Position numbers and translations under genes: made by a program
NCBI RefSeq assembly: GCF_905475395.1
Contig: NC_058337.1
Coordinates: 85,926,368-85,990,367 of the forward strand
Direction of reading: 5' to 3'
Origin: Chrysoperla carnea
Lineage: Eukaryota > Arthropoda > Insecta > Neuroptera > Chrysopidae
Length of the DNA: 64,000 bases
The notes under the pieces: generated by a model
The model's input: the letters and a program-made list of their open reading frames with translations, nothing else
Databases searched by the model: none
What the model was told of the DNA's origin: nothing
Shown here: positions 9,380 through 42,608 of the stretch, piece by piece
How positions within the stretch are numbered: position 1 is the first letter of the stretch
Layout: each line of letters opens with the position of its first letter

Positions 9380-9387
9380 TATATAAA
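9380..9387 (+). promoter_or_regulatory. Putative TATA box of gene 1
   Basis: TATATAAA lies about 120 bp upstream of the first ATG at 9501. A start near 9410-9415 would leave a 5' UTR of about 90 nt. No strong initiator is seen. Confidence 0.4.
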
Positions 9388-9500
9388 GCGTCACATCTTT
9401 CGAAATGTATAATTAAATTTCGTTGACCAATACAAGAAATAGGAGACATTTTATTTGACCTGTTTTTGCATAATCGCAGTATTATTTTAATTTTTTGTGT

Positions 9501-11705
9501 ATGGTAAATTCACGCACTGCAACAATGGCCAATTATAATAAATCATTATCAATATTTTCAATTGTTCTATTTTTCTGCTTATCAACAGTGTCCAGCCACG
9601 AACTGTGGTATCAGGTTTGTTGAATTTTGTTATTATAAAAATAACTATAAATTAAACTTTTTGTGTAGATTTAGTCCTAACTTTAAATAAATCGTATTTT
9701 TAATTGAATTTTTTAAGTATTAAATATTATACCAACAATGGTCATTTTAATAAATTTTTGGACAATATGTTTAATTGTCTCAATGTTTCTATCTATAGTT
9801 TTGGTAAGAATTGTTACACAATTAATTTTTTTTTTTTGGGCAATTGATAGTATTAGCAATATCAAATTTTTCTAGGACAATATTATTTATATTTTTCTAT
9901 GTGTATCTAGGTAAGATTATATTGACTTTCCACGAAGAATGCGCTACCCTGCGCATACCGCGTATGGAATTGGTTACGCTTTAACCAACTGAACTACTGG
10001 GGATGACATGCTATAAGTATATCTAAAAAAATATATATAATTATATTTAAACACAGTGCGTCTCAAAAGTTATCAATAGCAGAAAAAGAATAGAGAATAT
10101 AATTCTAACGCTAAAGTCCTGCGCTTTAATTAACCAGCTAGTGATTTGATTATCATTGTTTTTTATTTTTAAATCTCATTTAGGTAATGCTAGTATAAGT
10201 GAAATTTTTATAATGGGCTTTATTTGTAAAAAATAAAGTTTAGTACATTTATTCATTTGGACTATTTTCGGTTCCTTCGTAAAATTGAAATATTTACTAG
10301 AGACAAATTTTATATTTAAGACGATTGAACCTAAAAATCGCGATTAATAATAAGTTGACAATGGCAAAACGATAAATTGTAGTAAATTTTACTTAATTCT
10401 AAAAATTTAAATTTTTATTACATCATATGATTTGAGAAATTAAAAAAACAAAATGTAATAATTCATACGAAGTTCTCAAAATAAAAAGTGAATCATTAAA
10501 TATAAATAAAATGGAGTACTTGGTAAAAAATTCACACTTTTCATTCCATTTTAACAAGTCAAATAGATTTATTTCAATAGTTAAAACGAATTCTTTTAGG
10601 GTACTTTGATCGATATAACTATAAGAAATTTAAAATTTTAACCCCTAAGCATCTGTAAAAGGTAATTCTCTAAGATGAATTACTAGAATTGACGCTTGTT
10701 TATCATTTGAATAAGATGATAATTGAATACCATCTGCAAAATCTTTTTTCTTTTCGACAAATCGCTATGCCTACCATTCTATAATTCCAAAATTGTGATT
10801 TTAGAGGTGTCGAATTCGGAAAAGAAACATACGTTTTATTAAAATAATAGATAGTTTTGCCTTTTTAATTATAATTAATTTTATTTTTGTAAAATAATTT
10901 GTTTAATATATTTTAATTTGATTTACAGACTCTTCCATCTTCACAAGGATTAAATGCAGCCACTACATTAGGTAGCAGCAATCTAGGGTATACCAATGGT
11001 TTAAGTAGCTTAGATTTAAGTAGTACCTATGCAGGTTTAGATGGAAAAAGTTTAGGATACAGTGGAGGATTAAATGGACTAAGCACAGGAGGCTTAAATG
11101 GTTTTAGTGCAAGCAGTTTGAGTGGCTTAACTGCAGGGGGATACAGTGGTTTAAGTGCGGGAGGATACAGTGGCTTAAATTTAGGAAGTTACAATGGCTT
11201 AAATACAGGAAGCTACAGCGGTTTAAGTTCTGGAGGCTTAAGCGGTTTAAGTGGATTGGGTGCAGGAGGGTTAAGTGGTTTAAATGCAGCAAGTCTAAGT
11301 TATCCAAGTTTTGGGGGTAGTAGTTATGCTGGTTTAGGCAGCGCTGATTTAAGTTTAAGCAGAAGTGCAGATTTGAGTGCTTTGAATAGCGCAACACTTG
11401 CTGGAACTAGCTTGGGCTTGAATAGCGCAGCAAGCTACGGTTTGGGGGCTGATGCATTAGGTGCATATGGATTTGGAGGCTATAGCACAGGTCTAAGTGG
11501 CTATAGTGGGTCAAGCGGACTTACTGGGTTTAGTGGATTAAGTGGTCTGAGTAGTTTGGGATTAAGTGGAACAAATGGTTTGGGAGCTTACGGATATCCA
11601 GGCTTATATTCTTATGGGAGTGCAAGTGGCTTAGCAGGAAGTGATTTAAGTGGTTTAACAGTCGGTTCAAGTAGTTTACATGCAGGTCACAGTCATAGCC
11701 ATTAG
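9501..11705 (+). CDS. Secreted Gly/Ser/Leu octapeptide-repeat protein (two exons)
   Basis: Exon 1 is 9501-9614 and exon 2 is 10929-11705, joined in phase 0 (CAG|GTTTGT ... TTTACAG|ACT), giving 296 residues. An in-frame ATG at 9525 is an alternative start and leaves the signal peptide clean. Residues about 9-32 form a signal peptide with a hydrophobic core (SIFSIVLFFCLSTVSS), with likely cleavage before HELWYQ. Exon 2 carries about nine octapeptides of the form GG(Y/L)(S/N)GL(S/N)x (11064-11288), then further Ser/Gly/Leu/Ala/Tyr-rich sequence, and ends in HAGHSHSH, a possible metal-binding tail. The intron (9615-10928) holds a SINE fragment. The composition suggests an extracellular structural protein such as cuticle, eggshell, silk or glue. 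This is inferred from composition only; no named family is recognised. AATAAA occurs at 11717 and 11874. Confidence 0.85.
9911..10003 (-). repeat. Internally deleted tRNA-derived SINE (family D)
   Basis: The complement reads a tRNA-like A box (TAGTTCAGTTGGTTAAAGC) followed by the GCGGTATGCG..GGGTAGC head seen in the other copies. It then jumps to the 3' end (TTCGTGGAAAGTCAATATAA) with the body missing. It lies in the intron of gene 1. Confidence 0.6.
11064..11288 (+). repeat. 24-bp coding tandem repeat (octapeptide)
   Basis: 225 bp encode nine octapeptides GG(Y/L)(S/N)GL(S/N)x, with one unit extended by three codons. The repeat is part of gene 1 exon 2. Confidence 0.8.
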
Positions 11706-11716
11706 TAAATAACACA

Positions 11717-11879
11717 AATAAACAAACAATTTTTCAACAAGAAAGATTCAAGTTTATATATAGATCACATTAGCTACAACGTTATTCTTGAGTAATAATG
11801 CTAACTGAAGACTTCATATTTGTTTTTAATTTTTAATTATTTTATTATTATTATTTTGTAATTACTTTTCATTAATAAA
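11717..11879 (+). terminator. Poly(A) signals of gene 1
   Basis: AATAAA occurs at 11717-11722, only 12 nt after the stop, and at 11874-11879. The second is followed by a T-rich region and gives a 3' UTR of about 190 nt, so it is the more likely site. Confidence 0.5.
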
Positions 11880-12539
11880 TTTTTGTTAAAAATGATTTCC
11901 TCTTTATTGCTATCCAAAGCTTTTTTCTTTGAAGATGTTTTTAAGTCAATAAGGTAATGTATTTTTTACAAGCTAATCAGTGTTTTCAATTTCAAGTTGT
12001 GGTCTTGAAATTTTTATGGTATTTATGATTCCATGGAAAAAAAACAAACATCACTATTCCTCACTCTTATAAAAAACATTATTTTTTTTTTTAAAACAAA
12101 CGAAAGATCAAGCACTCATTCACTGGCATTCGTCTTGAAGCTCACAAAGTAAGAATAGAAGTTCTAATGCCTTTTTATTTTAAAGAGCAAATAATTTCAA
12201 AAAGAATGCTTTACAAACCAAAAATTTAATTCTTATAACAGAGCGACTCGAAAAAGTTAAGTAATTTTGTGTTTAATCATGATTTTTTTAATTAAAATAC
12301 CTAAACTTAAAACAAACCTTGCACTTACCTTACAAAATGTATGTTCAAATTCAATACGTAAAAACGCTCCCTACGCAGATGCGCAGATTAATTCTCTTGA
12401 TTCCCAATGATCCTCCTTGAGGAATTTGACCTGACTTATGCCTTCGGCTTCAAAACTTGCATAAGATTGTTTTTCGTTAAGATACAAAACAGGCATATAG
12501 GTGTAGGTAATTGAATTGCCGAAATCGATTGTATATTCT
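11880..12539. other. AT-rich intergenic DNA
   Basis: No gene is supported. The 68-codon minus frame at 12371-12577 overlaps the start of a MITE and lacks recognisable features. Confidence 0.45.
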
Positions 12540-13125
12540 GAAAATTTTAAAGCGGGGAGGGAGGGGGGTTTGACCAATTAGTTAAATAAATAAATGACTT
12601 CAAAAGTTGCTTGGTATTATGGGAACTATCGTTTTCCCATAATACAATGGATGATATGTTTTATAAATTTCTCCAAAACAAGACGGTGGCAATTAAAAAA
12701 ATTATTTCAATTAAAGTTAAAACCTTAATAAATTAGTGAAAACAAAGAAAACCCGTCGTGCCCGACTAATTAAAGATGTATGAGTACGGTATTGGGGACG
12801 GGAATTAATAAAAATAATTTTTTTCAATTTTGATGGTGAATTATGTTATAACTTGCCAATATAGGACGAAAAGTACGAATACAAATTTTTGATATCTAGA
12901 ATACATAATTTTCAAAATATCGAAAATTGAAAATTTTGTTTAATTATATTTAGCTTTCGATATTTCGAAAACCACGCCAGATATGGAAAAATTTTATTCT
13001 TATTTTTCCATCTTATTCATGAAGTTATAACAAAATTCATTATCAAAGTTGAAAATAAGGTACAAATAATTTGAACCAGAAGTCTAAACTTGCTTTAGCG
13101 CTCATACTACCTCAAATACTTTTAA
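12540..13125 (+). mobile_element. Foldback MITE (family H), copy 2, uninterrupted
   Basis: The left arm (about 12828-12945) and right arm (about 12955-13050) are imperfect inverted complements. Shared blocks are GTTATAACTT against AAGTTATAAC, and CAAAATATCGAAAATTG against TTTCGATATTTCGAAAAC. A G-rich tract (12551-12568) sits near the left end. The terminus TTGCTTTAGCGCTCATACTACC matches the right end of copy 1. It carries no transposase. Confidence 0.65.
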
Positions 13126-13411
13126 AGAAAATAGTTTCAATTTTTCTGGGTCTCTTATTTGAAACACCCCAATACCTATGTATCTCAATTTCATATTTCA
13201 AACAAGTATTTTTAAATTCTAGAGAGTCTATCTCCAACAAACTTTCATTGATATAACTTTAGCTTCTTTTCGCATCCCATACCTTCCGACTTTACATAAG
13301 TTTTTATAACATTGTGTAAATAAAATAATCATGGTACTATACGTAAAATTAAAAATAATTAAAATAATAATTGTACAATAATAGTAAAATAAAAAAAATT
13401 TTTGAATTCTC

Positions 13412-13419
13412 TATAAATA
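13412..13419 (+). promoter_or_regulatory. TATA box of gene 2
   Basis: TATAAATATCGA starts here. An initiator-like TCATAT lies about 31-33 bp downstream (13444), giving a 5' UTR of about 30 nt before the ATG at 13475. The same 12-mer occurs upstream of gene 6 at 40189. Confidence 0.6.
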
Positions 13420-13474
13420 TCGAGAGGTAAATTTTTTTATTTTCATATTGCATTTGGTAAATAATAAAAACAAA

Positions 13475-15536
13475 ATGAATTCCAAAAATAATATATTTGT
13501 TGCGTTATTAATTGTTTTATTTTCAATAATTGTAGCTAACTGTCAACAACAAGTAAGTAAATCAATTAATTTTTATAAAATAATCGAAAATATTATTTGA
13601 AATATTATTGCATGACATAACGTAGGCCGGGTAGATTTTATGACTCATGTTTCCCAATAAATTCGCGTGCATTGACACTTGAAATATAATATTGAATAAA
13701 AATGTTTCGATCGAATTTTTGAAAAGTTTGTCAGGCAATATCAAACTTTTCGGTGATATGCGGTTTAACTATAAAACACAGCCTGTGCTGAACTATCTGG
13801 ACGGCATTGCGGTACCTGCTTGAATTGCTCATTGTTCGCCTAGGTTAATTATAATGAGCATATCTCCAAAGAGATTCTAGTATATTTGGAAGTGCACATT
13901 AATTTTTGGGTATAGGTAAAAGTTTTAAGAAAACTTCTTATAAGTTGGCATGGTAAAAATTGATTTTAACTAAATTTTATCAATGCTGTTTTGACTTTTG
14001 GGTCATCTTGTATTTATAAAATTAATAGGTGTTTTTTTGAACCATGAATGCAACTCTCGAGAACTTCGAACACTTCTGAAATATGAAAAGTCGAATTATT
14101 ACCACGGTTTAATTAATTTTTTGATGTTTCTCATCAAAGGTTGATAGGAGCACATCGGTATAATTTTTTCGTATTGTAAAAAACATTTATATCCTGTACT
14201 TCATTTTTCGAAAAGTTTAAAGTTTCAAGAATCCTTACATTCTTCTACACAACAAAGACTAGCTTCACAACCGATATACACTCATCTGGAGCTTTAAATG
14301 CCGTTATAGCTTGAGTCTTAATGAAGAAGATGAAAGAAAAGAGAAAAATGAGTCGAGATTCATGAGCTCAGATCCTTGTGGAACCTACATGAATTGTTTA
14401 CAAATAATCATTACTAGACTACTTCGATGCTTTTCATTAACGTTTACTTCGAAATATAACTATTTAAATTTTTACCCTGAAATTTGATAGGAAACTAGTT
14501 AATGAATATGGGACAGAATTTAAAAAAGAGACTTTTATTTAATACTAACTTTTAATTCTATAGTTTGTAAAAGGTTGGTCTGTTATTTTGGGACATTCTG
14601 TTTTGCCACTTGGCTGAATAAAATCATTTAGTTTCATTCTTTAAATATTAAAAAAATTAATAGATAATTTTACTTTATATAATGTGTCTGATTTTTTTTG
14701 AACCCTAGCCCAACCCATTTAATCAAGGATTTCAAAATGCGCAGCGAGTCATTCAGCAAGGTGTAGCAAGAGGAATAGAACCGTTGAACGTGGTGTTTAT
14801 GAATCCAATAAATTCACAATATAATCGAAATAATAATCGACTCGCCGGGTTTTTCAATTCATTATGAGTAGGAGCTATACCTAATCAAAATTTTGTGAAC
14901 GGACTAATGTTTTTGAAATACATTTTTCTCGTAATTTTACTAAAGGATTTCTGACAAACATTCGGGTCGTACTGGTCTATAGGCAATGGTATCCATATAG
15001 CTTTGTAGATTTTCTTAACCTTTTGTTTATTATTATTACCTACATTTTTCGGAAGTAAAGTTTAACTGCATAAATAATGTGTCTAATTTTTTCAACTATA
15101 GCCTAATCCAAATAATCAAGGATATCAAATATTAGAACGAGTCATCGAGCAGGCTGTAGCAAATGGTGTATATGATGCATTAAGCCCACAAAACAATCGT
15201 AATAATGATCAATACAGAAACAATGATCAATACAGAAACAATGATCAATACAGAAATAATGATCAGTATAGAAATAATGACCAATACAGAAATAATGATC
15301 AGTATAGAAATAATGGTCAATACAGAAATAATGACCAAAATAGAAATGTCGAGGATAGACCAGATTACTTTGTGAATGATCAACGACAAAGAGGAAATTA
15401 TGGTCGAGGAGAAGTACAACCAATTAATTCAGAACCATTACCTATACAATCAACATATCCATACGTACTCAACGTTGAACCCGTACCAAATGGAAATTAT
15501 CAAACTCGAGGGCCAATAATTCTTCGTGCCAACTAA
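13475..15536 (+). CDS. Secreted Asn/Gln/Arg-rich hexapeptide-repeat protein (two exons)
   Basis: Exon 1 is 13475-13552 and the main terminal exon is 15102-15536, joined in phase 0 (CAA|GTAAGT ... ACTATAG|CCT), giving 170 residues. Exon 1 is nearly all signal peptide (MNSKNNIFVALLIVLFSIIV, then ANC and QQQ). The terminal exon starts PNPNNQGYQ, continues with a short likely helical stretch (ERVIEQAVANGV), then eight NNDQYR-type hexapeptides (15201-15344), a charged linker and a Pro-rich end with an NYGRGE patch. A second, shorter candidate terminal exon lies at 14709-14867. AATAAA occurs at 15557. The protein is polar, repetitive and secreted, so an extracellular matrix, cuticle or glue role is possible. 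No named family is recognised. Confidence 0.82.
14709..14867 (+). CDS. Alternative or vestigial terminal exon 2a of gene 2
   Basis: This is an open 53-codon exon (stop TGA at 14865) preceded by a 3' splice site (CCCTAG|CCC) in the same phase as the main terminal exon. Its first 22 or so residues match those of exon 2b (PNPxNQGxQ, RVIxQxVAxG), and the final preserved part (YNRNNNR) aligns to the start of the hexapeptide array, which is missing here. The intron ends before both exons also match (ATAATGTGTCTGATTTT against ATAATGTGTCTAATTTT), showing a tandem duplication of intron end plus exon. Splicing to it would give a 78-residue secreted protein. I see no AATAAA between this exon and exon 2b. 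Confidence 0.65.
   Translation, partial: PNPFNQGFQNAQRVIQQGVARGIEPLNVVFMNPINSQYNRNNNRLAGFFNSL
15201..15344 (+). repeat. 18-bp coding tandem repeat (NNDQYR x 8)
   Basis: Eight 18-bp units: six encode NNDQYR exactly, one NNGQYR and one NNDQNR. Third positions vary (AAC/AAT, CAA/CAG, TAC/TAT). Confidence 0.9.
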
Positions 15537-15556
15537 AGATTTTAAAATTTAATCCC

Positions 15557-15562
15557 AATAAA
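15557..15562 (+). terminator. Poly(A) signal of gene 2
   Basis: AATAAA lies 20 nt after the stop codon. A further AATAAA occurs in 15640-15650. Confidence 0.5.
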
Positions 15563-15838
15563 ATATTTAAAACGTCGACAAATTTTTGTAAACTGTATGT
15601 AACTTTTTATTCGAAGCTTTTGTGTAAGTTAACTTTTACTAATAAATATATGAAGTAAAACTGTAAAATATATCTGTGATTTCTTAATAAATATTTTTAA
15701 AATTATAATGTCATTTTCATGAACAGAAATATATATACTGTCTAACACAGAGCTATGGTTTTCACCCAGACAAATAAAACCAAAATTGGTTTCATACCTT
15801 TACGCTTAGAGTTGCTCAACATGCGAACATAGCTTTTT

Positions 15839-15923
15839 AACATGTGAAAACAAACAATTGACTGAGTTAATTGTTGAAATACCATTTTGTTTTTCAGTCA
15901 ATTGTTTGTTTTTCCTTGTTATT
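15839..15923. repeat. Inverted pair of family B termini
   Basis: The terminal block of family B (AACAAACAATTGACTGAG) appears here as its complement and again about 40 bp later in forward form (CAGTCAATTGTTTGTTTTT). Together they make a hairpin. Confidence 0.55.
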
Positions 15924-16074
15924 TTCAACTTGGATTTCAATCAAAACTTCGGATTATGTTAAGTCTTGCTTGATGAATAAATAAAATTCTCTACAAAGTC
16001 TCAAATAAACATTTTCTAAAATTTTCTTTTTTAATTTTCAAATAAAATTTTTATACCATGTATATATGTAATAT

Positions 16075-16602
16075 GCAAGGTATACTAAGTTTATTCCCAA
16101 GTTTTTAACGCTTAAAAATATTTCTGCTAAGCAAAAAATTTAGATATAGGTGTTCATAAAATCACCTAATTAGTCCATTTCCGGTTGTCTGTCTGTCTAT
16201 CGCCTGTCTGTCCGTTACCACGATTACTCAAAAACGAAAAGAGATATCAAGCTGAAATTATAGCGTACTGAAGACATAAAAAGTGACGTCAAGTTCGTAA
16301 ATGAGCAATATAGCTCAATTGGTAGGTCAATCTTGTAAACCGTTAGAGATAGAACAAAAGTGTAGAAAATATTTCTTATAAAAAAATAACCAACTTTTGT
16401 TTGAAACATTTTTTCGTAAATATCACTGTTTACCCGTGAGAGCACAAATTAGGCGTAAATTGTATAGAATGTAATTATGGGAATATCAGTTATGTATGCG
16501 TGCCATGTATGTATGTGTAATGTGATAAAGTCATCAACACTGCCTATGCATGGTATTTCAACAATTAACTCAGTCAATTGTTTGTTTTCACTTGTTTACT
16601 CA
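16075..16602 (+). repeat. Dispersed repeat family B, near full-length copy
   Basis: It starts near GGTATACTAAGTTTATTCCC, contains a GTCTGTCTGTCT microsatellite followed by AACGAAAAGAGATATCAAGC and GTAAACCGTTAGAGATAGAA, and ends TCAATTGTTTGTTTTCACTT. Related copies lie at about 21690, 25835, 27640, 32280, 45580 and 54317. Its short frames (16224-16445, 16477-16734) are not conserved as genes. Confidence 0.8.
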
Positions 16603-17734
16603 TGCTCTTTTTACTGTTATGCCCATAGACAACTAAAAATTGATACTGATTTAAACTGCAATACAATAAATTTGACCACATATACGAAAACTATAATTTG
16701 TTATGTTTTTTTTCCTTCCATGATACTTGGATAATTCCACTGCAAGTTTTAAAATTTACGAAATATTTTATTTTTTTTTTTTTTTTTAAGAAATTACATA
16801 TTATAAATTTTAATTTGGGTCTTCTTTAATTGTTTCCTTTGACGATTAATAATAAATTACTCTACGGCAATAGATGTTCTTTCAAGATTGTCCGATTAAT
16901 TATTCGTCTGTCTGAATGTTTTCCTGTTTCATAGACTCACTAATTATCAATAGGTAGGTATATTCATCAACTGGAAACTTATGCGTGAAATTACAGAAGG
17001 CAAGGAGATCGACAACTTTTATTTTGTTCTTCTGATGTACAACTACCCATTTAGAGCCGATATATAACTGACCTCTTATAATTTTAACTTAACAATTGAA
17101 GCATCAAAATAGCGTTAACAACAAAAACGTTGAAGTGTTTTTGAAACCTGCCCGCAAAGTTTTTTTTTAGATTACCAATATAGTAAGAACTGAATGTTTT
17201 ATGTATAAAAATGTGGCTTAAAAATTACACAATAAGATACTGTTCTCTGTTTCGCGTTGTCTCGTATCTTTAGAAATACAATTCGCTAAGAAACCAATGA
17301 ATATTGTTTTGCCTTGCGTATAATACTTGCTCGTCTATTAACGAAGACGAAGAGCTATAACAAATCAGCGAGATGTAAATTTATTTTGTTACTAAATGTT
17401 TACAGAGCAATTACAATGGTAATGACCGTTGAAATAGTGCCTTCTATTCTTCTGAGAATTATTATGTCAAGAGAGTAGAAGTACCATTATGCATTGTTAA
17501 TATTACAAAAAAATTTAAGACGAGATTATTTTCATAGAAATAAAAAAAAGGTGATACAACTGAAAAGCGATACAAAACTTTTCTGATCCATTTTTGGCGC
17601 TATGGGGGACTTTTAGTATGTTCGTTTAACATATTAACACATGGCATTATTCCAAAACTTTCTTACAAAAAGATCATTTTCTTTTGCAATGAATGGCACA
17701 ATTCTCTTTTGAAATTTTTTTCTTTGAATGACTA
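16603..17734. other. AT-rich intergenic DNA
   Basis: No gene is visible. A long T run lies at 16774-16790. Confidence 0.45.
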
Positions 17735-17746
17735 TTGACTTTTTAT

Positions 17747-17901: not shown

Positions 17902-18094
17902 TTGACTTTTTATTAACTATTTTTAATTTTCGAATTTTCGAGCCCTTCAGAAATCATTTTATTCGACGATCAACAAATAAAGAAAATTGTTAATTTAAGT
18001 AAATTCACAAAAATTTAGTTTTATCATTTTTTAAAGGTATATCATTTTTTAAAGGTTAATCATCCATCTACCGTTTTTCCATAAGACCAATATT

Positions 18095-22950: not shown

Positions 22951-24820
22951 ATGAATTTTAAATTATTTTTGTTCGTATTCCTTGCATTAGTTGCGTTAGC
23001 AACAGCTCAAGTAAGTAAAACTATTAAAACTTATTTATCATTTATTACTTTCTTGTAAATCACTTCGGGTCATTAATATATAAAATAATGAGAATACGTT
23101 AATCAATGTCACAAATAATGCCGAGGCTTATTTATCCGCGGGAGGCCGATATCCACAGCAACGGAAAACATTTATTTGTGTAAAATACTCATTTTATTTA
23201 AATTTATTAAACCGGAGAAAATCTGTGCAGGACAATTCGACAATACTGAAATAATAGTGGCTCTACATTAGTCTTTCACTAACACAACACTATATTACTG
23301 ATCCATGGCAGCAATTACCAATCCTCAACAAGAAATGCGAAAACACATACATAAACGTACAATGTTGAAGCCCAAGATCGAAGCTGTTAGATTTAATTTC
23401 GCTTTACTTTTTTTTTTATTACAAAATCCGCAAAAACTTATTATCGAAATTTTGAAATCTGTTTTGACCGTTACTTCATGTTCTAAAGTAAAGAAAGTAT
23501 TGAAATCCCGAAAAAAATTTTATTATAACTTATTCAGTTTTCAACAGATAAACTTTAAAGCTATCTTGAATAATTTCAGCGGACAACTGTACGAATATGA
23601 ATAACGCGTAACTCAATAATCACTAACATTAGAAAGTTGAATAATATGTTGAGAAAAAAACGTAATAAAGTAAAATCATAAATGGTAAAAATATAACACT
23701 TTTCTATGGGAAGTTAAAACCATGGGTTTCTATATGGTCAAATAAGAGTCGAATGAAGTTGACTCTTATTTGACCATAATGTATGGCTCATTTCAGCAAT
23801 TTGAAGGGGATACGTAAGTCAAAACCGCTTATTTTGACGTTTTTATGGCTATCCACATTTGTACAGTCTCTCTAAATTAAGCCAGAGGGTTAAATATCGA
23901 CACATGGCTTAAGAAAAGGTCAAGAATGTGCTTTATTGGGGGTGACTTCTCAGCTCGTTACCCCCTTACCTCTTTTTTAAACCAATATATAATGTTTTTT
24001 CATCCAACACTAAAAATTATTAAATGAAGGAGAAACAGGATTTTAGTAAGGGAGGTCTGTTGTTTACGAGTTAATTTTTATATGTGACGTATATACACTC
24101 TTCTGCAAAACGTAATAGTTAAGGTATTGGGAAATAAAAAGATATTCTCGAGTATAAGTTAGCAGTATTATGAATTAAATAATTTTTTTATCTACGACTG
24201 AGAAAAGACGTACTTTTCTCACTCAGTATGCGTGGGAAAAATAGTTAATTACCGCCATAGTGTGGTAATGCATTCATTTCCGCATTAGGACGGTAATAAA
24301 TTCGAGTTACTATAGTAACTTTTTTAATTTTCTATTTTTCTCCATAACAAACTTTAAATAATAAGCCATGACAAATTTTAAATAATAATTATCGTTTATT
24401 TTCACATTTTAGAGGCGTTAACATATAATTCTGCGCTTGTTCAACTCGTACTACAAACTCGTGTAAATTTCGCAGGCGTCTATTAATAATGCTGTTATCC
24501 CACTCGTAAATAACTAAAAGGGTTTATATTAGTGGCACTTATTTTATTAAATTGATTTAGTTTTCCCTTTAGTGCCTCGCCTTGAATAAAACTGTTTAAA
24601 TTGAGACACTTCGAGCAATGTTGCGAAATATAATGCTAATGATTTTTTTCAAATAAATAAGTTTCAGAGAGGCGGAGGAATTGGCGGACAAAGTGGAAGA
24701 GGCGGAGGACTTTCAGGAGGTAATAGAGGCAGTGGAGGAGGAGGATATGGAGGTGGGCGAGGTGGGCAACAAAGTGGTGGTCGAGGAGGATATGGACAAG
24801 GACAAGGGAACTTAGGTTGA
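22951..24820 (+). CDS. Small secreted Gly/Arg/Gln-rich peptide (two exons)
   Basis: Exon 1 is 22951-23010 and exon 2 is 24668-24820, phase 0 (CAA|GTAAGT ... TTTCAG|AGA), giving 70 residues. Exon 1 is exactly a signal peptide, MNFKLFLFVFLALVALATAQ, with likely cleavage near the exon boundary. The mature part is about 50 residues, more than half glycine, with scattered Arg, Gln and Ser, no Cys, and few acidic residues: RGGG, GRGG, GGRGGYGQGQ. It is therefore basic. Glycine-rich insect peptides of this size include antimicrobial and cuticular types; neither can be chosen from sequence alone. The intron (23011-24667) contains a perfect 17-bp hairpin at 23734. AATAAA lies at 24935. Confidence 0.82.
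23734..23777. repeat. Perfect 17-bp inverted repeat in gene 3 intron
   Basis: ATGGTCAAATAAGAGTC is followed, after 10 nt, by its exact complement. Confidence 0.85.
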
Positions 24821-27630: not shown

Positions 27631-27635
27631 GATAG

Positions 27636-27982
27636 ATATATTTAACGCTTAAAAATATTGATGCTACGAACAAAATTGTTGTATAAGTGCTCATAAAGTC
27701 ACCAAATTAGGCCATTTCCGGTTGTCCGTCTGTCTGTCTGGCAACACGATAACTCAAAAGCGAAAAGTGATATCAAAGAGAAACATAGGTCTATTGGGTC
27801 TTGGATCCGTAAGACCCATCTTGTAAACCATTAGAGATAGAACAAAAGTTTATATATAAAAAAATGTTCCTTATAAAAACATGAACAACTTTTATTTGAA
27901 ACATTTTTTCGTAATCAACACCGTCTACACATGGTATTTCAACAATAAACTCAGTCAATTGTTTGTTTTCACTTGTTAACAT
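27636..27982 (+). repeat. Dispersed repeat family B, internally deleted copy
   Basis: It runs from TTTAACGCTTAAAAATATTG to TCAATTGTTTGTTTTCACTT. Part of the section between the GATATCAA block and the GGTC..GGGTCTTGG block, and the section upstream of the CACCGTCTACACATGG end, are missing. Confidence 0.7.
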
Positions 27983-30883: not shown

Positions 30884-30958
30884 AACCAACTAAATGATAT
30901 TTTTTTTACTTTTAATAGCTTTAATCAAATGTTTAGCGATTGTTGATTATTGTAGACG

Positions 30959-33117
30959 ATGTATCAAAAACACTACGTCATATTTTATTGCGTCATAATT
31001 TTGTTTTTTGTGATTCATTACGGTGATGCACAATATCAAACTGTAAGTATGACTTCTTGTCACATAATTTTATAGATGACTTATGATATCGGTCAAATAG
31101 AGTATAGATTGTAATCCTAAGATGTAGTGTAACACGATTTATGCTTAATAAAGTAATAAGTGTGCAGTTTTTATCATCTCATTCAATGTAAAAACCTTCT
31201 TCACGATGGACAATTTGGGCATTAAATTCAATTAAAATTTGTTTTGTAAATATTACTAATTTTGTTTCTGTATCATATAAAAAAAACTTTTAACAAAAAG
31301 AAAACCGACTTCAAAAGAAAAACTTTTCCAAAACAAATTAATATGCACTAAAAATTAAAAAAAAAATAACGATAATATAATGTAGTTAAAATTATTGTTA
31401 TTTTTGGAGACGGTGTCAGCCAAGGAAACAACTCTGACAGAACAGTTTGCTACATTAGCTTGCCTGACAAAAATAACAATAATTTTAACTACATTATATT
31501 ATCGTTATTTTTTTAATTTTTAGTGCATATTAATTTGTTTTGGAAAAGTTTTCCTTTTGAAGTCGGTCGGATTTTTAGTGAATCTGAAGTACACGAACTA
31601 ATTTGTCACTAAAAAAAGAATCATCGAAATCGGTTGGCGTGATATTGAGTTATTCGTCCTCTTGTCGTTCATACTTAATGTAAATTTAATACTTTTATGG
31701 CTTTCACATGCATCCCGTTGTCAGAAATAGACCAAAATGAAATGGGACCACACGGGAAGCACCAGCTTTTAAATAGATAAAGAATTATCTAAATCGATTC
31801 ACCCAGTCAAAAATTCTGAAGTAACACACCTAAAAAAAAAAAAATACAGTTGAATTAATGACCTCCTCCTTTTTTGTTTGAAGTCGGTTAAAAATAGAGC
31901 AAACACTTATCATAATTTAAATTAACATGACCATTTTTATGGCTACATTTTGTTAAAATATATCCCCTTGAGGAAACACAATTAAAGATCATACATGAAG
32001 ATTTATAAAATTATTATCAATTAGCTAGATCGGTTTCGATTGCTTTGGAAATCCTCTTCAGTAGCATTACTTAAATCTTTAAAAATAAATATAAAAAAAC
32101 AAATAAAATTACCAAAATAAGATAAAAATCAAATCAAAAAAATATATCTGCAACGCCCTAAAACAACCAATATAAAGTATTAAAAATTAAATCAGGCAGA
32201 ATTAATTGCTTTATTTTAGAAGGATGTTCTTGATAGAGCAACTAAATCATCATTAAAATATTTTGAATGATTCAATACAAGTTTGTAACACTTAAAAATA
32301 TTGAGGCTACGCAAAAAGTTTTGGTATAGGTGTTCATAAAATCATCTAATTAGTCCATTTCCGGTTGTCCGTCCGTCCGTCCGTCTGTGAGCACGATAAC
32401 TCAAAAACGAAAAAAGATATCAAGCTGAAATTTTTACAGCGTACTCAGGACATAAAAAGTGACGCCAAGTTCGTAAATGAGCAAAATAGGTCAATTGGGT
32501 CTTGGATCCGTAGGACCCATCTTGTAAGCCGTTAGAGATAGAACAAAAGTTTATAAACAAATAACTAACTTTTGTTCGAAACATTTTTTAGTAAACATCA
32601 CTGTTTACCAGTGAGGGCGCAAATTAAGCGTAAATTGTATAGAATGTATTATACGGGCATATCAGTTATATATGTATGCTTAATGTGACAGTTTAATCAA
32701 CACTGTCTATGTAAGGTATTTCAACAATTAACTTGTCAATTGTTTGTTTTCACTTGTTTTTATATATAATAATGAACTCAGTGAAAAGTTAGCAATCTAA
32801 GTTAAATATTTATCTTTGTGCATATTTTGAATGGCTTACGTTCACTAAATATGTAAATTTTAAAATATATTTTTAATGGTAAAATGACTTGCACTTTTAA
32901 TATAAAAATTTAGGTAATAATTGATTATTATTGTATGCTATTTTGAAAATTTTTTATTTTGCTTTTTTTCAAGGGTTTTGGTGGATTTGGTGGTTCAAGT
33001 GGCTTAGGATTTGGTGGTCGTCCAGGTGGTTATTATTTAGAAAGTAGAAAGAATCCATTTTATGAATCACTTGGTATACGGAGACCTGGTGGATATGCAA
33101 CCGTTTATTTATCCTAA
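30959..33117 (+). CDS. Small secreted Gly-rich peptide with conserved-looking tail (two exons)
   Basis: Exon 1 is 30959-31042 and exon 2 is 32974-33117, phase 0 (ACT|GTAAGT ... TTCAAG|GGT), giving 75 residues. Residues 1-24 form a signal peptide (hydrophobic IFYCVIILFFVI, cleavage likely after GDA before QYQT). The mature chain starts with GFGGFGGSSGLGFGGRPGG and then changes to a non-repetitive tail (YYLESRKNPFYESLGIRRPG, ending TVYLS), unlike the fully repetitive neighbours. The intron (31043-32973) is packed with two mobile elements. AATAAA lies at 33166. No Cys is present in the mature part. The function is not recognised; a cuticle, eggshell or antimicrobial role is conceivable. Confidence 0.78.
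31288..31895. mobile_element. Composite element with long hairpin and AACCGACTTC termini
   Basis: The left end carries AAAACCGACTTCAAAAG and the right end TTTGAAGTCGGTTAAAAA, forming inverted termini. A near-perfect hairpin with about 120-nt arms occupies 31300-31575, with shared GTGCATATTAATTTG / CAAATTAATATGCAC. The rest includes the phrase AATGGGACCACACGGGAAGC, which I recall from repeats in several insect genomes. It lies in the intron of gene 4. A second copy of the hairpin part is at 48418-49390. Confidence 0.65.
32277..32759 (+). repeat. Dispersed repeat family B, near full-length copy in gene 4 intron
   Basis: It runs from GTTTGTAACACTTAAAAATA through a GTCCGTCCGTCCGTCTGT microsatellite to TTGTCAATTGTTTGTTTTCA. 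It has the same orientation as the gene. Confidence 0.8.
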
Positions 33118-33171: not shown

Positions 33172-33337
33172 AAAAGTTTTATAAAAATAAATGTTTATTA
33201 CTCTTATTATTGAGATTGGTTGACGACTCTTATTATTAAGATTAGTTGAAGATTCTACCTACTAGATATTATCGTGTCCATCCGAATGAATCCAAAGATA
33301 TTATGTTTAGATAATAGTCTGTGACATTAGCTACTAA

Positions 33338-33620
33338 GTTAGGTTAGGTTAGGTTATATTGGCTGTCCACGAAGGACACACTTAGGCTATAGAGCCCATT
33401 GTGATACCATCTATGTGTTTTACCACCTTTCCGCTGAAAATTTCATTTATCAGCTCCTCAATTTTAGAGGCTGAGAGCACCTTCTTCATGCATCTACCAT
33501 GTACTACTCCAGCCCATCACAACTATTAATTAAATTAATTTTGTTGCGACGGCGGGCATCGAACCCGCTACCCTAGGTAAGCATACCGCGGACGGAAGAT
33601 TAGCGACTAACTACTGACAG
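33338..33620 (-). repeat. tRNA-derived SINE (family D), long copy
   Basis: Read on the minus strand: a diverged head with a B box (GGTTCGATGCC), GCGGTATGC, the body GCTGG..AGTACATGGTAGATGCATG, the CTC..TTGAGGAGCTGATAAATG block, and a tail ending TATAACCTAACCTAACCTAA. The A box is degraded. Confidence 0.7.
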
Positions 33621-34647: not shown

Positions 34648-35937
34648 TATCAAGCTATTTCACTTTACGGACTAGGGCAGGCTTTGATAGGTGCGGATGA
34701 TCATCGCTCTACCATGTTTACCTCTTAAATTAAAATTTTGATTATAAAGTGCTCAGTATTTATCAGTTTCGTTTCTATACAAGGTTTATCGAGATGATAT
34801 CGTATACAAGGTTTCTCTACGTCGTAGGTATTCTCTATGACGTAGATAACACAATATTCTAAGTAGAAAAATCCTTTGAAAAAGCGGTCCATTTCCTGTT
34901 TAATAGTAAAAAAAATTATCGCCAGATGGCAGGATTTGTCTGATTTTATTTTGAATATTTTGGTTGGCCTTAAAAAATGGTAAGTGTAAGTATTGCAATC
35001 TGGTAGTCGAAATTGTAACTACTGAATTCGGGTCGTCTTCTGATTTTAATTAGTACGAATTATTATCGCCAGTTATCGAGTTGCAACTCCCAGTTATCAA
35101 TAGTCAATTGCTTAGTTATGAAAACATCTCAACTAATAGCCCAATTAAAAGTTGTATAACAAGAAAAATTATAGAAAAGAAATTTTACTATCTTTAAGTA
35201 ATACCGCAATATTGAGTTTTTCAAAATCACTAATATATGCCCTACAAAGAAATGTTTATATTAATAAATTAGTAACATAATTAATAAATTAATAATTTAA
35301 GCCTATAAATATTTAGAAAATCTGTCGTTGAAGAAAATCAGCTTAAATTACATATTTTAGAGTTCGGTTGGAATTTTTGTGGTATTTTCATTTTAAATGG
35401 TTTTCATTTTATTTCTATCCAAGCATTTTTGGAATAGAACAAAGGTTAATGATAAAATCTCAGAAAGTAGTTTAATAAACCTAAATGTATTGACGTAGTA
35501 TCGAATCCATAGAAAGTATATTGACGTAAATTAAATTTGGAAAATCAATTAGTCAAATTAAAAAAATATTATTCTTTAAGTGTTAAATAAATAAATGTAT
35601 AAAGGTTTTAACTAAATTTTTTTGGATTTTTAAATTTAAATTAACACGTTTGTAAACAAAAATACTTAATTCCAAATAAATTGAAAAATTGACCTCATCC
35701 TTCAGGGGAAATCCTATAAAAAATTAACATAAAGCTAATAAAATTTAACCTCATAATAAAATACAAATAAATATAATTTAAAAAGAAAAAAACAAGATAT
35801 TGAAGAAGCGTTGATTTTTAAATGCATTGTTCTCTGTTTATTTAGAACTATATTGACAAATTGACGACATTACTTCGAATAATTGATGATTACTCATTTT
35901 TTTTTTTTTAAATTGTTCATTTTTTCATATAAATATC
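34648..35937. other. AT-rich intergenic DNA
   Basis: No gene or repeat is recognised upstream of gene 5. Confidence 0.45.
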
Positions 35938-35945
35938 ACAATTTT
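35938..35945 (+). promoter_or_regulatory. TATA box of gene 5
   Basis: TATAAATATC begins here. An initiator-like ACATTC lies about 33 bp downstream (35971), 50 bp before the ATG. Confidence 0.55.
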
Positions 35946-36020
35946 TTAAAATTTTACATCAATTGATTCTTACATTCTTAAATAAGTAGAACTTTACTCT
36001 AGTCTTAAAAAAAATTAAAA

Positions 36021-37147
36021 ATGAATTGTTTGGTAGTTACATTTTTCGTTTTAAGTTGCATTTTGTGTAATTTTGCAATGGCATTGCCACAAAATTATGC
36101 CTCTGGCCATTTGGATTATAATCGTGTCAGTTATCCTGGATATCAACCTATACAGCCTGTGTATCCAGCATATCCAACATATCCAGTTTATCCGGTAAGT
36201 AGTTATTTATTTTTCGTATTATCTAACATAAGAGATGTTTATAAAAGTGTGATAAAAAATTTAAAAAAATAATTGCTTTATTTAAACTAAACTTTTTTGT
36301 AAGGACGAAATTCAGAATATGTCGGACCTATTATAGAAATCTTTGCAAGATTTTCAGTAAACAATCTGATTTTCCATTTTTTATTTCGAAATTTCCATAC
36401 ATCATTAAAGTGGTTCGGCTGTTTGAACAAGTACGGTAAATTCAAAGTCCCTTGATCACAGTAAACACAGTTTCGTGGCCTCTTACGAAGCAAAATTTTT
36501 AATTATATCAATTTAAAATTGTGATTTTTAACATAGTACCGTATGGAAGAACTCATAATAATGTTAATTGTACAAAAATTAAAAAAGTTTTAATCATGAA
36601 GAAAATTTATCACAGTTTCTGTTTATGCAAACAAACATTACTTTACGGCGCTTTCCAAAACAGAAAACATAAAAAAACTTTGGTTTTTGACGCATTTTGG
36701 ATATTTTTAGAGCATGTTTTTACATTTAGGTCATACAAATTTAGTTGATTCACGTGACGGCCGAACCACTTTAAAGAAATGAATTTCTAATTATATTGAC
36801 ATAAACACGTTTAATTTGTGCTTCATTTGTGATTTTATCTTGTATTTTAAAGTAAAACGTGAAAACAGAAACTTGTTTTCAAACTTTTCCAGGCGTACAA
36901 TTGAAAAATTTGAAGCTAAAAAATTAAAAGTATCTAATGGTACAAAATTATATCAATTTTGAATATTTACGTGGTTTTTGCGTCACCTTGCTTTATGTTA
37001 CTTCTACATATTTTTAATTATTTATTCCAGACCGGAGGATCACGTGGAGCAGTTGGTGGCATAGTTGTGAAACAAACTCCATACGGAAAAACTGTTGTAG
37101 CTGGTGGTATTATTAAGAAAAATAATCAGCCATACTACGTATATTAA
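36021..37147 (+). CDS. Small secreted Tyr/Pro-rich protein with Gly/Val tail (two exons)
   Basis: Exon 1 is 36021-36194 and exon 2 is 37031-37147, phase 0 (CCG|GTAAGT ... ATTCCAG|ACC), giving 96 residues. The signal peptide covers residues 1-21 (MNCLVVTFFVLSCILCNFAM, cleavage after A21). Unlike the neighbours, exon 1 also encodes about 37 mature residues, ending in YP-x dyads (PVYPAYPTYPVYP), a pattern frequent in insect cuticle and adhesive proteins. Exon 2 encodes GG-spaced hydrophobic segments (GAVGGIVVKQTPYGKTVVAGG) and ends QPYYVY. Tyr residues could support cross-linking; this is inference. AATAAA lies at 37175. The intron (36195-37030) shows no mobile element. Confidence 0.85.
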
Positions 37148-37174
37148 AACCAAAAATTATGTAATTTTTCTAAA

Positions 37175-37180
37175 AATAAA
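37175..37180 (+). terminator. Poly(A) signal of gene 5
   Basis: AATAAA, 28 nt after the stop. Confidence 0.5.
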
Positions 37181-40100
37181 TATTTTTTAAGACTATAAAA
37201 AAAAGTTTTCAAATTATTACCAAAATTTGGTAACCAAATGTACCCCAACAAAAGTAAATTGTCTAATACTTTCTATATCAACTAGTTGAAACATACTCTC
37301 AAAAATGATTTCAATATAAACTTTATTAAAAGACTTATCTGAGAAAGAATTACGCATGGTAAAATTAGGGAAGTGTTAAAATTTTAAACAAACAAATACT
37401 TTGTTTATGTTACCACAGACTTTTACTTGGCATCATCAAATAGTTTTATGAAATACTTCTATATTCTAAAACATTATTTACACTTTTTGTATTCAAGGTT
37501 AATTAGAAATGTTCTATTTTTAATCACACAATATTTGTAAAAATAATTGTCACAATTTTTATGTAAATAAATTATATTCAATACTGCGCGTACAGTGTCC
37601 CTAAAAGGTTTGTATAACATTCTATAAGATATAACATAGCTCCAATAAGTCGATTTAGCTAATGTTTCCATATTACCAGATTGTTTCGTTTTGTACCTAG
37701 ATGGTTTTAAAGATGAAATAGTTAATCGTTTTTTGTAACTCAAACTCCAACGAAATATTTTTTTGCTAAAATTGGATATGTAGGTATGGTTTAAAACTCA
37801 AACCATTAGCGTAGAACGTGAGATTATTATAATTAAATCCCACTGTATTTCTACGCTATGGAGGTAAGAGGTTGAAAATGTTAAATTTTGATTCAGTTAA
37901 TTGTGTACTTTACAAAAGATGCTTTTGGTATGAATCGTTCATCTTCATGATTTATTCGAAATTTCTCGAAACTTTTGCTATGAGAAATTACGTCCAAATG
38001 TGCATCTAAAACGATCGTTAATAGATTATAAGCCTACCTACTTAGAAACCATACTGTGTCCATACATAAAGCTTCTATTTCAAGATCTTTCATCACATTA
38101 TTCTGAAATTCACCCAGGTTTTAGCCGAATTGTGAAGTATTTAAAATACCACAATCAAGTTTAACAGCAACCTTAAAGAAAAGTGCCTAATTATAAAAAA
38201 AGGTGCTGTAAATATTAATACAATGATGGGAGCGATAACAACGTATACAATAAATAACCACATTGATCTTCACTATCTTTTTATCGATTTTCGTCAAACC
38301 TAGAACAGCATAGTAAGAAACACAACTGCACATATCTAAATACGCCGTACCACAATTCTTATTAGATATAGATATCCTGAATCAAACGCACGCTTCAACT
38401 TGGAAAACGCCATCCATGCTTACTCTGGAAGAACAATTTGCAATAAGCTCCTCATCTTGCTTATGCGGCTGATATGGATATAATGCCAATCCCCGCTTTG
38501 GATGATGATACTTTTTTGAAGAATTTGATCTTTCTGTCAAAATTGAATATCATTTGATATTTCAGTCGAAATGTCACATTTGCGTCCATGAATAAAGAAA
38601 ACATTCAGCAAATTCTTCGAAACAACGTTCACTGTTTGGGGTATATGACGTAGCATTGATAATGCGAAGCAGGTTCAGGTATGGACATATTTGGGCTTGG
38701 AGTTCGATGAAGGAATGTCTGTCAAAATTTAGTTGAATGAAGGAATGTTGTCCAGAAAGTCCCGGTCTTTCAAGCATCGTAACGATGAAATATAATTTGA
38801 ATCATTGTAAAGGGAATATCTATATGTGAATATGCGTAACGGGATTGTAAGGAGTAATGTGAAATCTCTCCTTAACAATTTAATTTCACATGAGAATCCC
38901 AGAAATGTTTGAGAAAATTGTTCCTAAATCAAAAATGAGAATCGAGATATCCTAGCGAGTGATAAAGCTACACCAAAAAAGGGATATTCTTAATAGTTTT
39001 GAAACTTATCCGGCCAACGTTAAAATTATTATATAATTTTTAACACACTTTTTGTTTAGAAATAAGTAGTTCTGTTTTATTAATATTTGAAAGGCCTTGA
39101 ATTTTTACAAATGATTTCTATCAATCAGAAATATAAATAAAAACTAAAAACTAAAACCCGACTACACAAAACATAAAAACAAACATAAAATATATAATCT
39201 GGTACACATCAAAAATCAGATGTCCAAACTCAAAAATTTACAAGTATGGATACAGAATGGCATTCGATAGAAGAAATGATTCGATCTTGATCATTCGAAA
39301 GTGTGCAGTTTCATCATTTTGAAAATATTTCAATTCCATAAAGTGATCATCCCGTAGCGCTTTGCGTCAAGGGTTGAAAGAGTGAAAAAATATTCTATTA
39401 ATTTTTATAATCGAAAAAAGTAAACAAAGTTGTTTTTCTAGAAAAAGCACTATGGATCAAGTGCGATTTGCTCAGGATTCCGATTCGCACTTGATTCTAG
39501 AAAAAGAGCACGGTTGCCAATAGTAATTTTAGTTTTCATACAAAATAATTTTTGCACGCTTTAAGATCGTAAAAATGATGTCACTTTTTTAGATTTAATC
39601 AGAAAATTTTTCCAAGCTTTCAAGCCTCGGAGTAAAGCTCTATACATTTAGTTATACTATTTTCCCCTAATATTTTAGTACCTATCCCCATTGCTAATAA
39701 CGGGAATTGTTGAAATCGACTACAAGAATTTAGTATATGTATTACATTCGTAAGCACGTGCATACAGTGTTTACATCTTAACCCTTCATTTTTGGTTTCA
39801 TAGTCGAGTAAAAAGTGAAAATTTTGCGTACATTAAAAATCTTCCAATGAATAAAATCTATCAATGATAAAACTATTTTAAAATTTAGAATATATTAAAC
39901 AAAAAAAAAATCAAATATTTATTTTAGAATTAAAAACTTTTTACTTTTGATTTTTAATATTTTGTTTTTTTCGTATATTTAAAAATTTACACTCCTTTAT
40001 TTTAAGTGATGAAATTTTTCAAAAAACACATTAAAATACTATAATAATTAGATAACTATTTACTTTACCAATTTTTATCTTATATCAGTTAAGAGGAGGG

Positions 40101-40188
40101 TAATATAATTAAACATTCTTAAACTAATAAAAATTATTTCATCCTTACCACCAATGCACAAAACCGCCAATAAGAGACTTTTTTTGGG
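37181..40188. other. AT-rich intergenic DNA
   Basis: No gene is supported over about 3 kb. The small minus-strand frames at 37474-37743 and 38574-38777 have no recognisable motif. A short inverted pair around CTAGAAAAAG..GATCAAGTGCGA is present at 39435-39505. Confidence 0.45.
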
Positions 40189-40196
40189 TATAAATA
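40189..40196 (+). promoter_or_regulatory. TATA box of gene 6
   Basis: TATAAATATCGA starts here, the same 12-mer as upstream of gene 2. An initiator-like TCATTC (40221) follows at about 31-34 bp. The 5' UTR would be about 65 nt. Confidence 0.6.
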
Positions 40197-40287
40197 TCGA
40201 AATAATTGTCAACCAAATCATCATTCGAACGTCAACCATCAAAATTTAATAACATACAATTTGTCTAATTATTATCGTTTTATAACA

Positions 40288-42457
40288 ATGATGAATAAGA
40301 CATTATTAAGTGTTCTATTAGTTTTAACAATTGCGGTATGCATTGTTTACTGTGCACCGGAACCAGAACCAAATAAGGGAGGCGGCGGTGGTGGATATGG
40401 CGGTGGTTATGGCGGAGGATCTATATGGGATTTGAAATCAAAATTTGGATGGGGTGATTATGGCGGTGTATGTATTCAATTTTTGCTGTTTTTTTTTACT
40501 TACATATTTTTTGAACTGAATAATCTTAATTCAGGAATAGAATTACATAATTGAATTCATCAAAATAAACCATTTATTAGATTCTTTTTATTCCTTTTTT
40601 TGTTGTTCACATCTTGTGTCACTACTGGTGAATGGAATTTTTGATGTTAAAAGTATGAAACAGATAATTATGAATCGAAGAAATGGTTCTATTTAATGAA
40701 TGCAATCAATCAATGAATAATAAGTGGTAGGTTTAAAACTACTATTTGAAATAATTAATTATATTAATATTTTTAATTTGTTCGCACTCGGGTACAAAAA
40801 TAATTGAAACTACAGTATTAAAAAGAATTTAAAAAAATACATTGGAACCAGGACTCGAACCCGGACTTCTTGGACTTATGTTAAGTGCCCTACCAATTAG
40901 GCTATTCGAGTTCTAGACAGAGAGTGCAACTGTTTATTTTAATAATGTATACGATATTTATTTACATCATGGTCTCTCGATTCGACAAATATCTTGTCTA
41001 GTAATCTTAATTAAAGAGAATTGAAAAAAATACACCCGAACCAAGACTCGAACCCGGACTTCATGGATTCATGTTATTTAGAACTCGTTTAAAAATACCA
41101 TTCGTTAAAATCAATTTTCTATCTTTTATTGAAAACTTTCATAATCGGAATAATAATGGATTTTGTTAAGAGGTCAAGTAGATCATTGCTGAAATAAAAA
41201 ATTTTATATTTTGTAGGCAGCAAGCTCTGTCTTTTCAAAAATTTGTATATATATTATAGTAATAAGGACCGGTATATCAAATATTTAATTCCTCCAATCA
41301 AAATTCAAACAAAAATCCTTTCGCTATTTAGAGGATAATGAATAATAAAAGTTCGCCAAATAGCGAGTATATGAACATTCGTCGACGTGAACATAAACAA
41401 TGTAAATTGTGAGTGCTTGACCACTTGACCACTTTATGTGTAGATTCCATTGAAGTTTCCCTTTGACGTTCAATATTTCAGGAAAGATTTCTAAAGAATT
41501 TGACGAACCAAATCGTATTCTGTATCTTGATTCTGTAACTTTTCCAGAATTATAGCTCGACAATTGTTCCTTATCTCGTCTCGTATATATAAGATCAAAA
41601 AACTTGCATAACAAAATACAATCGCTTATCGACTATCGTTAAATAATATTTCTAACGCCGCTCAAAAACTTTTGTTGTGTTAACACTAGAGCAACTACTT
41701 AACAAGCCAGTTTAAACAAATCGAATCCTTTTTCTTAGCAAAAAAATTTTCTTTACGTCATCAAATACCTATTGCTTTGATGCCACCTCGTCTTGGTGGA
41801 AATTGTACTCATGGATGTAACGAAGAGAGGGCGGATCAGGGCAGCTACAACACCTGAATCTGAATTTACCATTGTTTTAATTGACGAAGTATATGTTTAT
41901 GACAAAAAACAGTTGAATTTGGGAAACTTTTAGCCAAAAGTTTTAGACTTGGCACCTTTTTTAGATCAAAAATACCTGTGTACTAAGTCATTCTTTGAAA
42001 GGGAATTAAATCGGAATAATCAAAGCAAATTGCATCAAACAATCAATTACTCTTAGATTACATTGTTTTATTCCTTGGCATCTTAATTTTTTTAAACATA
42101 ATCATTAAAAAGTGCTTCCGATTATGTTTAGTCCCAAAATAACCATTTCTCGCGGCAACATTAAGTATAACCCAATTATTTCTTCTTGAAAAAAAAATTG
42201 TAAGTAATTTATATCTTTATTGATAAATTACCCGTCTACAAAAATAAATGTCTACCAACTTATTTTTTGACAATGAAATAAATGTTGACCATTATTTGGA
42301 ACAAAAAAAAAAACGTAATGTCCAACTACAATTAGTTTGTAAAAGTGTTGGTTTTTATTTGAACAAACAGAAAAAAAAATTATATTTATTTTTTGTTGGT
42401 GTAAAGGGTTATGGAGGCGGACACGGTGGTGGCAGACGAGGTGGTCACGGACGTTAA
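40288..42457 (+). CDS. Small secreted Gly/His/Arg-rich peptide (two exons)
   Basis: Exon 1 is 40288-40467 and exon 2 is 42407-42457, phase 0 (GGT|GTATGT ... GTAAAG|GGT), giving 76 residues. The signal peptide is residues 1-22 (MMNKTLLSVLLVLTIAVCIV, then YC), followed by APEPEPNKGG, which resembles a short acidic/proline propeptide. Then come GGYGGGYGGGS and IWDLKSKFGWGDYGG in exon 1, and GYGGGHGGGRRGGHGR in exon 2. If the intron were retained, the frame would run on to a stop at 40554 with an AT-rich, unrelated tail; glycine-rich continuity favours splicing. The 3' splice site lacks a strong pyrimidine run, so the exon 2 boundary is slightly less certain. AATAAA lies at 42603. The type resembles Gly/His-rich insect antimicrobial or cuticle peptides; not assigned. 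Confidence 0.76.
40843..40917 (-). repeat. tRNA-like SINE head (family E), copy 1
   Basis: The minus strand reads an A-box-like TAGCCTAATTGGTAGGGC and a B box GGGTTCGAGTCC. The anticodon stem does not fold as a standard tRNA, so this is a tRNA-derived repeat rather than a functional tRNA. It lies in the intron of gene 6. Confidence 0.6.
41035..41087 (-). repeat. tRNA-like SINE head (family E), truncated copy 2
   Basis: It matches the 3' half of the copy at 40843-40917, including GAAGTCCGGGTTCGAGTC and the AT-rich flank GTATTTTTTTCAATTC. The A box is missing. Confidence 0.6.
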
Positions 42458-42602
42458 TTACATGAAACAACAGCAAACGACAAATTACATCAGTTTATAA
42501 TTAAGTTCTGTTGTTTTTATATATAATTGTGTTCAATTTTGTTTTTTACATTGATATTTTTCTAATTTGTTTTTATGTAAATTGTTTTTTCATTTTTTGG
42601 CA

Positions 42603-42608
42603 AATAAA
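42603..42608 (+). terminator. Poly(A) signal of gene 6
   Basis: AATAAA, 145 nt after the stop, followed by a T run. Confidence 0.5.

Follow-up and report, generated by a model that had tools for sequence, protein, structure and literature searches.

Results

Six two-exon genes on one strand

The DNA analysed here is a stretch of 64,000 bases on chromosome 1 of the lacewing Chrysoperla carnea (C1:85,926,368–85,990,367; hereafter the window, in which position 1 is the first base), and its subject is an array of six predicted genes, A to F, for small secreted proteins of biased composition. A first-pass annotation had proposed six two-exon genes on the + strand, each with a signal-peptide exon that ends at a phase-0 donor, and all six models held when they were checked against the sequence. 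They span 9525 to 42457, and each consists of a signal-peptide exon, a GT-AG intron and an open terminal exon. The introns, which had been put at about 0.8–1.9 kb, measured 836–1939 bases (1314, 1549, 1657, 1931, 836, and 1939 bases in A to F, respectively) and were all modelled in phase 0, and the predicted proteins are 288, 170, 70, 75, 96, and 76 amino acids long. By simple arithmetic, the two-sided chance that six genes share one orientation is 0.03. The junctions of all six models are predictions, and a hydropathy rule, not a trained predictor, was used to recognize the signal peptides.

All exons given below are on the + strand. Exon 1 of gene A (9525–9614) encodes a signal peptide, has an in-frame upstream ATG at 9501 and is preceded by a TATA box near 9380, and its terminal exon (10929–11705) carries SGL repeats with a period of eight residues, the self-match peaking at lag 8 (0.316) and next at lag 16 (0.248). 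The mature part of A contains no cysteine and ends in HSHSH. Gene B has a signal-peptide exon at 13475–13552, cut after CAA at the donor CAA/GTAAGT, and a terminal exon (2b, 15102–15536) with an array of NNDQYR hexapeptides and a unique tail. The signal-peptide exon of gene C (22951–23010) is cut after CAA at the same donor sequence, CAA/GTAAGT, and is followed by a terminal exon rich in Gly, Arg and Gln (24668–24820). In gene D, the signal-peptide exon (30959–31042) is joined to a terminal exon that starts with GFGG and continues in a unique tail (32974–33117); a second signal-peptide-like open reading frame (ORF) lies just upstream of the start of D, out of frame and near the TATA box (30894–30998, + strand). 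Exon 1 of gene E (36021–36194) encodes the signal peptide and a Tyr/Pro segment, the terminal exon being at 37031–37147. Exon 1 of gene F (40288–40467, with a second ATG at 40291) encodes a signal peptide and a Gly/Tyr segment, and its terminal exon (42407–42457) is composed of Gly, His and Arg. The intron of F also holds a tRNA-like element on the − strand (40840–40911, a match to Rfam RF00005), which is probably derived from a short interspersed nuclear element (SINE), and an 87% identical partial copy of it (41010–41076). Four genes (B to E) have the donor GTAAGT, F has GTATGT and A has GTTTGT; the donor of A and the acceptor of F (TTGGTGTAAAG) look weak.

Gly makes up 24% of the mature part of A, 57% of C, 27% of D and 48% of F, and the mature part of E contains 16% Tyr and 13% Pro. 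A is rich in Gly, Ser and Leu, and B in Asn, Gln and Arg. These six cysteine-poor compositions look like those of disordered structural proteins, and together with the predicted signal peptides they bear out the proposal of a cluster of small secreted low-complexity proteins. As to the further observation that the mature sequences do not align across genes, no clear homology was found at the DNA level; the compositions do overlap, however, as C, D and F alike are rich in Gly.

In gene B, the end of the intron and the start of the terminal exon are present twice in tandem. The first copy, exon 2a (14709–14867), repeats the PNPxNQGxQ...RVIxQxVAxG stretch and then runs into its own stop codon, and the second copy is exon 2b with the NNDQYR array. 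None of the poly-A-like hexamers AATAAA, ATTAAA, AATATA and TATAAA occurs between the two copies, thus exon 2a is possibly a relic, or else an alternative terminal exon with an unusual poly-A signal. QYNRNNNR stands in exon 2a at the place taken by the repeat array in 2b, which suggests that the NNDQYR array may have grown from a seed of this kind.

The rarity of this architecture was estimated by a scan of both strands of the window and of 100 kb on either side (264 kb altogether), in which a full model had to combine a signal-peptide-like ORF, a TATAAA box and a phase-0 donor with a terminal exon, either long or rich in Gly, no more than 2.6 kb away. The scan returned eight signal-exon matches on the + strand and one on the − strand, and the full models it produced were the known six only, F being counted with two starts; no seventh full model was found in the flanks, 200 kb in total. 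In 40 simulated strands of 264 kb there were 0.275 signal exons on average and no full model. Since the thresholds were picked after the six genes were known, these figures measure rarity and are not to be read as significance or as an unbiased probability. For C and F the scan, in its looser form, took acceptors slightly upstream of the modelled ones, and under the stricter rules of an earlier version C was left without a terminal exon.

Relatives and copies of the six genes

The search for relatives in protein collections was made with D and E, which both gave relatives, and with full-length A; B, C and F were left out. The relative of E (P0001) shows 87% identity across 64% of the query, and the match runs through exon 1 and on past the predicted donor. 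In the relative of D (P0002), the last 47 residues are identical to exon 2 of D at 42 positions and show no indel, and the part before the acceptor contains two stops in the frame of the window and only partial likeness. In both cases, exon 1 of E and exon 2 of D, conservation drops beyond the predicted splice sites. Because the source DNAs, contigs of 1212 and 934 bases, are unspliced, the two relatives are evidence for the exons and for where they end, but not for the splicing. The idea that the tails of these genes evolve fast is contradicted by the sole tail that could be compared, that of D.

Gene A gave no match at an E-value of 0.001 among the 7989 candidates scored from 5.8 billion proteins, and a search of the PDB, made with D only, gave no match either. 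No Pfam family matched any of the six proteins over the cut-off; the matches below it (A 0.83, B 0.49, B with exon 2a 0.12, and C 0.081, the last in the signal-peptide part only) were dropped. The genome (559 Mb in 337 contigs) was then searched with A, B, D, E and F, and the matches were their own exons and, for E, one weak further match (E-value 0.3, 29% identity) that contains internal stops. With F, exon 1 alone was returned, which shows that this method can overlook a short exon rich in Gly. As far as these searches reach, the genes are at least mostly singletons, with at least five lacking a detectable second copy, and therefore they do not appear to form a recently expanded family. No report of this lacewing cluster was recognized among the open-licence papers listed.

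Promoters and the question of common origin

TATAAA was found 41–160 bases before the chosen ATG in all six genes, compared with a frequency of 0.18 to 0.19 in background windows of equal size, and this box is the only promoter feature that all six have in common. When the regions from −250 to +60 of exon 1 were compared in all 15 gene pairs, no local-alignment score was clearly above those of 200 dinucleotide shuffles per pair; the best pairs were B–D, C–F, B–F and D–E, whose scores were reached by 8, 15, 17 and 18 shuffles, respectively (uncorrected). No 6-, 7- or 8-mer was enriched in the 500-base promoters after correction against 915 background windows. One sequence, TATAAATATC, is present in the promoters of B, E and F with a background frequency of about 0.001; as a common element it is suggestive, but it was spotted post hoc and its flanks do not align by eye.

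Blast comparison of the gene units detected repeats and short matches only. Segmental duplication of the units was considered and rejected, as the long stretches that they have in common belong to a dispersed repeat that also occurs in the flanks, on both strands and at 66–93% identity. This repeat of about 500 bases with the CGTCCGTC motif lies at 16098–16597, 27643–27977, 32278–32780 (in the intron of D), 45608–46132 and other places of the window and its flanks.

The first-pass annotation had offered two origins for the cluster. The first, that a single module of signal exon and promoter was used again and again, found no support because promoters and first exons do not align clearly better than shuffled DNA, no k-mer is enriched after correction, and the DNA shared between units is short or repetitive. 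A shared tissue programme, the second, fits the single strand, the TATA box in 6/6 genes and the isolation of the cluster. The six may also go back to an ancient common origin or duplication that is older than detectable similarity.

Surroundings of the array

Four ORFs downstream of the array, at about 90.2–134.9 kb in window coordinates and on both strands, matched JHBP (PF06585) with E-values of 1e-24 to 3e-46; we take these genes to be takeout-like. A fifth ORF that was tested, at 44.6–45.0 kb, had no family match. Two signal-peptide exons found in the flanks (98340 on the − strand and 112646 on the + strand, in window coordinates) were set aside, being likely first exons of JHBP-like genes as judged by position only. 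Upstream, three long ORFs of 361, 1251 and 668 amino acids at about −89.8 to −83.1 kb (window coordinates) have the look of a retroelement. At 33330–33600, TTAGG repeats precede a tRNA-like segment, an arrangement that resembles a SINE. A tandem repeat at 52006–52725 contains 2.3 copies of a 318-base unit with 87% matches.

Discussion

Judged by these sequence features, the gene neighbourhood is real and unusual, and its molecular function is likely to be ordinary. We favour, with a probability of about 0.42, the reading that it is a lineage-restricted neighbourhood of disordered structural proteins of the extracellular matrix, of the cuticle type, whose genes lie side by side on chromosome 1. 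This reading is preferred because the models are clean, in phase 0 and on one strand, TATAAA precedes all six genes and no seventh model lies in the flanks, and also because exon 1 of E and exon 2 of D are conserved in a relative, the compositions are biased and no Pfam family matches. According to it, each gene would be transcribed from its TATA promoter into a short mRNA, and its protein would leave the cell by means of the signal peptide. The mature chains look disordered; cysteine is scarce in them, and Gly, Tyr, Ser, Asn or Pro is abundant. They may pack together or become crosslinked, for instance by way of their Tyr residues, to give an extracellular matrix, most likely a layer of cuticle produced by the epidermis. 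The adjacency of the genes would give joint regulation, and their common origin, if there was any, would predate what sequence similarity can reveal.

Taxon-restricted low-complexity secreted proteins are already known, such as the CPG proteins, the apidermins and the products of the nlp-29 cluster. The glycine-rich CPG cuticular proteins of Bombyx mori are described as being of the GXGX/GGXG repeat type (PMC12426002). C and F resemble them in having Gly-rich stretches of this type (GXGX 14 and 15 times, GGXG 6 and 8 times, respectively), but no sequence homology to CPG is apparent, the type is limited to C, F and weakly D, and the counts stay within the expectation from composition. Also in favour of the cuticle reading, F has three GGY, a number above that of its shuffles (p = 0.03, uncorrected). 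The CPLCP proteins are proline-rich low-complexity cuticular proteins in which the high Pro content appears as PV and PY pairs (PMC7497268). Gene E alone is comparable with its 13% Pro and 16% Tyr (PV 2, PY 2, YP 5); however, the PV and PY pairs are few and the second half of E is of another type. Like the apidermins of Hymenoptera, which are described as taxon-restricted, Ala-rich cuticle proteins with AAPA/V tetrapeptides (PMC12426002, PMC7497268), the six appear taxon-restricted and are of biased composition; no AAPA/V tetrapeptide occurs in any of the six and their Ala content is 9% at most. The chitin_bind_4 domain (PF00379) of the R&R (CPR) cuticular proteins gave no match over the Pfam cut-off in any of the six proteins.

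Several observations weigh against a cuticular role. Gene B, with its Asn, Gln and Arg, is not cuticle-like. In C, D and F, neither GXGX nor GGXG occurs more often than in shuffled compositions at the 0.05 level (p = 0.84 and 0.95 for C, 0.055 and 0.09 for F), and consequently these repeats say little beyond the proteins being Gly-rich. Chitin_bind_4 was found at no fewer than 140 places in the genome, in a list that may have gaps since scoring was limited to the best candidates, and none of the matches listed is in the window. The nearest listed match (C1:86,842,354) is about 0.85 Mb downstream, and for this reason the possibility that the array sits inside an R&R cuticle gene cluster was rejected; other listed places are four at 83.05–83.47 Mb and dense groups at 90.4–91.1 and 93.1–93.2 Mb. 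Finally, the patterns of transcription-factor sites, counted without a significance test, do not decide between tissues: there were 0.67 BR-C-like sites per promoter against a background of 0.23 and 1.17 GATA-like sites against 1.66, one Grainyhead-like site in the six promoters (in A) and no FTZ-F1-like site in any of them.

That the six genes encode antimicrobial peptides of the epidermis or fat body, induced by infection or wounding as in the nlp-29 cluster, is less likely but a serious alternative. The six small secreted genes adjoin, and the net charge after residue 20 is +5 in C and E and +2 in D and F, but A and B, at −5 and −1, fall in the acidic to neutral range and are longer and repetitive. 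The Caenorhabditis elegans nlp-29 cluster is described as an infection-induced, monophyletic group of likewise six genes for glycine- and tyrosine-rich peptides in 12 kb (PMC2453101). The lacewing array is similar in the number and clustering of its genes and in their small, secreted, Gly/Tyr-rich products, but it extends over 33 kb and its members do not align as recognizable paralogs: DNA similarity was not clearly above shuffles, and no other member turned up when the genome was searched with A, B, D, E and F. Also on the side of this reading, exon shuffling at a phase-0 intron is the proposed origin of an antimicrobial peptide family in Nasonia (PMC2853521). The NF-kB-like sites (0.33 per promoter against a background of 0.15), being two in the six promoters, are too few to decide.

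An equally serious alternative, in our estimate, is a gland product such as larval cocoon silk, egg-stalk silk, an adhesive or an egg coating. Here the eight-residue period and the Gly/Ser/Leu richness of gene A come to the fore, since the egg-stalk silks of lacewings are likewise periodic (16 residues) and rich in Ser, Gly and Ala (PMC5485732). Forkhead-like sites number 3.5 per promoter against a background of 2.11 (significance not assessed), which also points this way. However, the egg-stalk proteins share a C-terminal Cys/Asp motif and ChryC1–3, from the same species, are 78.2, 48.7 and 30.3 kDa, all above any protein of the array (PMC5485732 for the silks). Gene A is like ChryC1–3 in being Gly/Ser-rich, repetitive and predicted to be secreted, but it differs in size and has the HSHSH end in a cysteine-free mature part; its identification as ChryC3 was rejected, as the C-terminal Cys motif is absent.

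Less probable again is a regulatory "nursery", in which the signal-peptide exons of one locus would time and again have acquired unrelated low-complexity terminal exons, by capture or by birth. The six genes would then share a tissue programme and an exon plan without sequence ancestry, and the tandem terminal-exon copies of gene B would represent one replacement caught midway. We give little credit to coincidence, that is, six independent orphan neighbours with no common role: the lack of clear homology at the DNA level would agree with it, but the same strand, the same exon plan, the TATA box of all six and the missing seventh model in 200 kb of flank do not. Least probable are peptides of the larval venom or saliva, although the six are clustered orphans with predicted secretion and the C. 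carnea venom contains secreted families specific to Neuroptera, of which one forms a tandem array (PMC12758981), since the words "glycine", "low complexity" and "silk" are absent from the main text of two lacewing venom papers.

The neighbourhood of putative matrix proteins favoured here differs from what is usual. Clusters of small low-complexity secreted genes generally consist of recognizable paralogs, as in the case of nlp-29; here, five of the six genes were tested and no relative of them was detected at other places of the genome, yet the architecture is the same in all six. The main interest of the locus thus lies in its being a test case of shared architecture without shared sequence. 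If the genes are co-expressed and syntenic, the array would offer a clean test of whether an exon plan and its regulation can outlive sequence homology or arise without it, and the six would become candidate genes for a lacewing-specific extracellular material.

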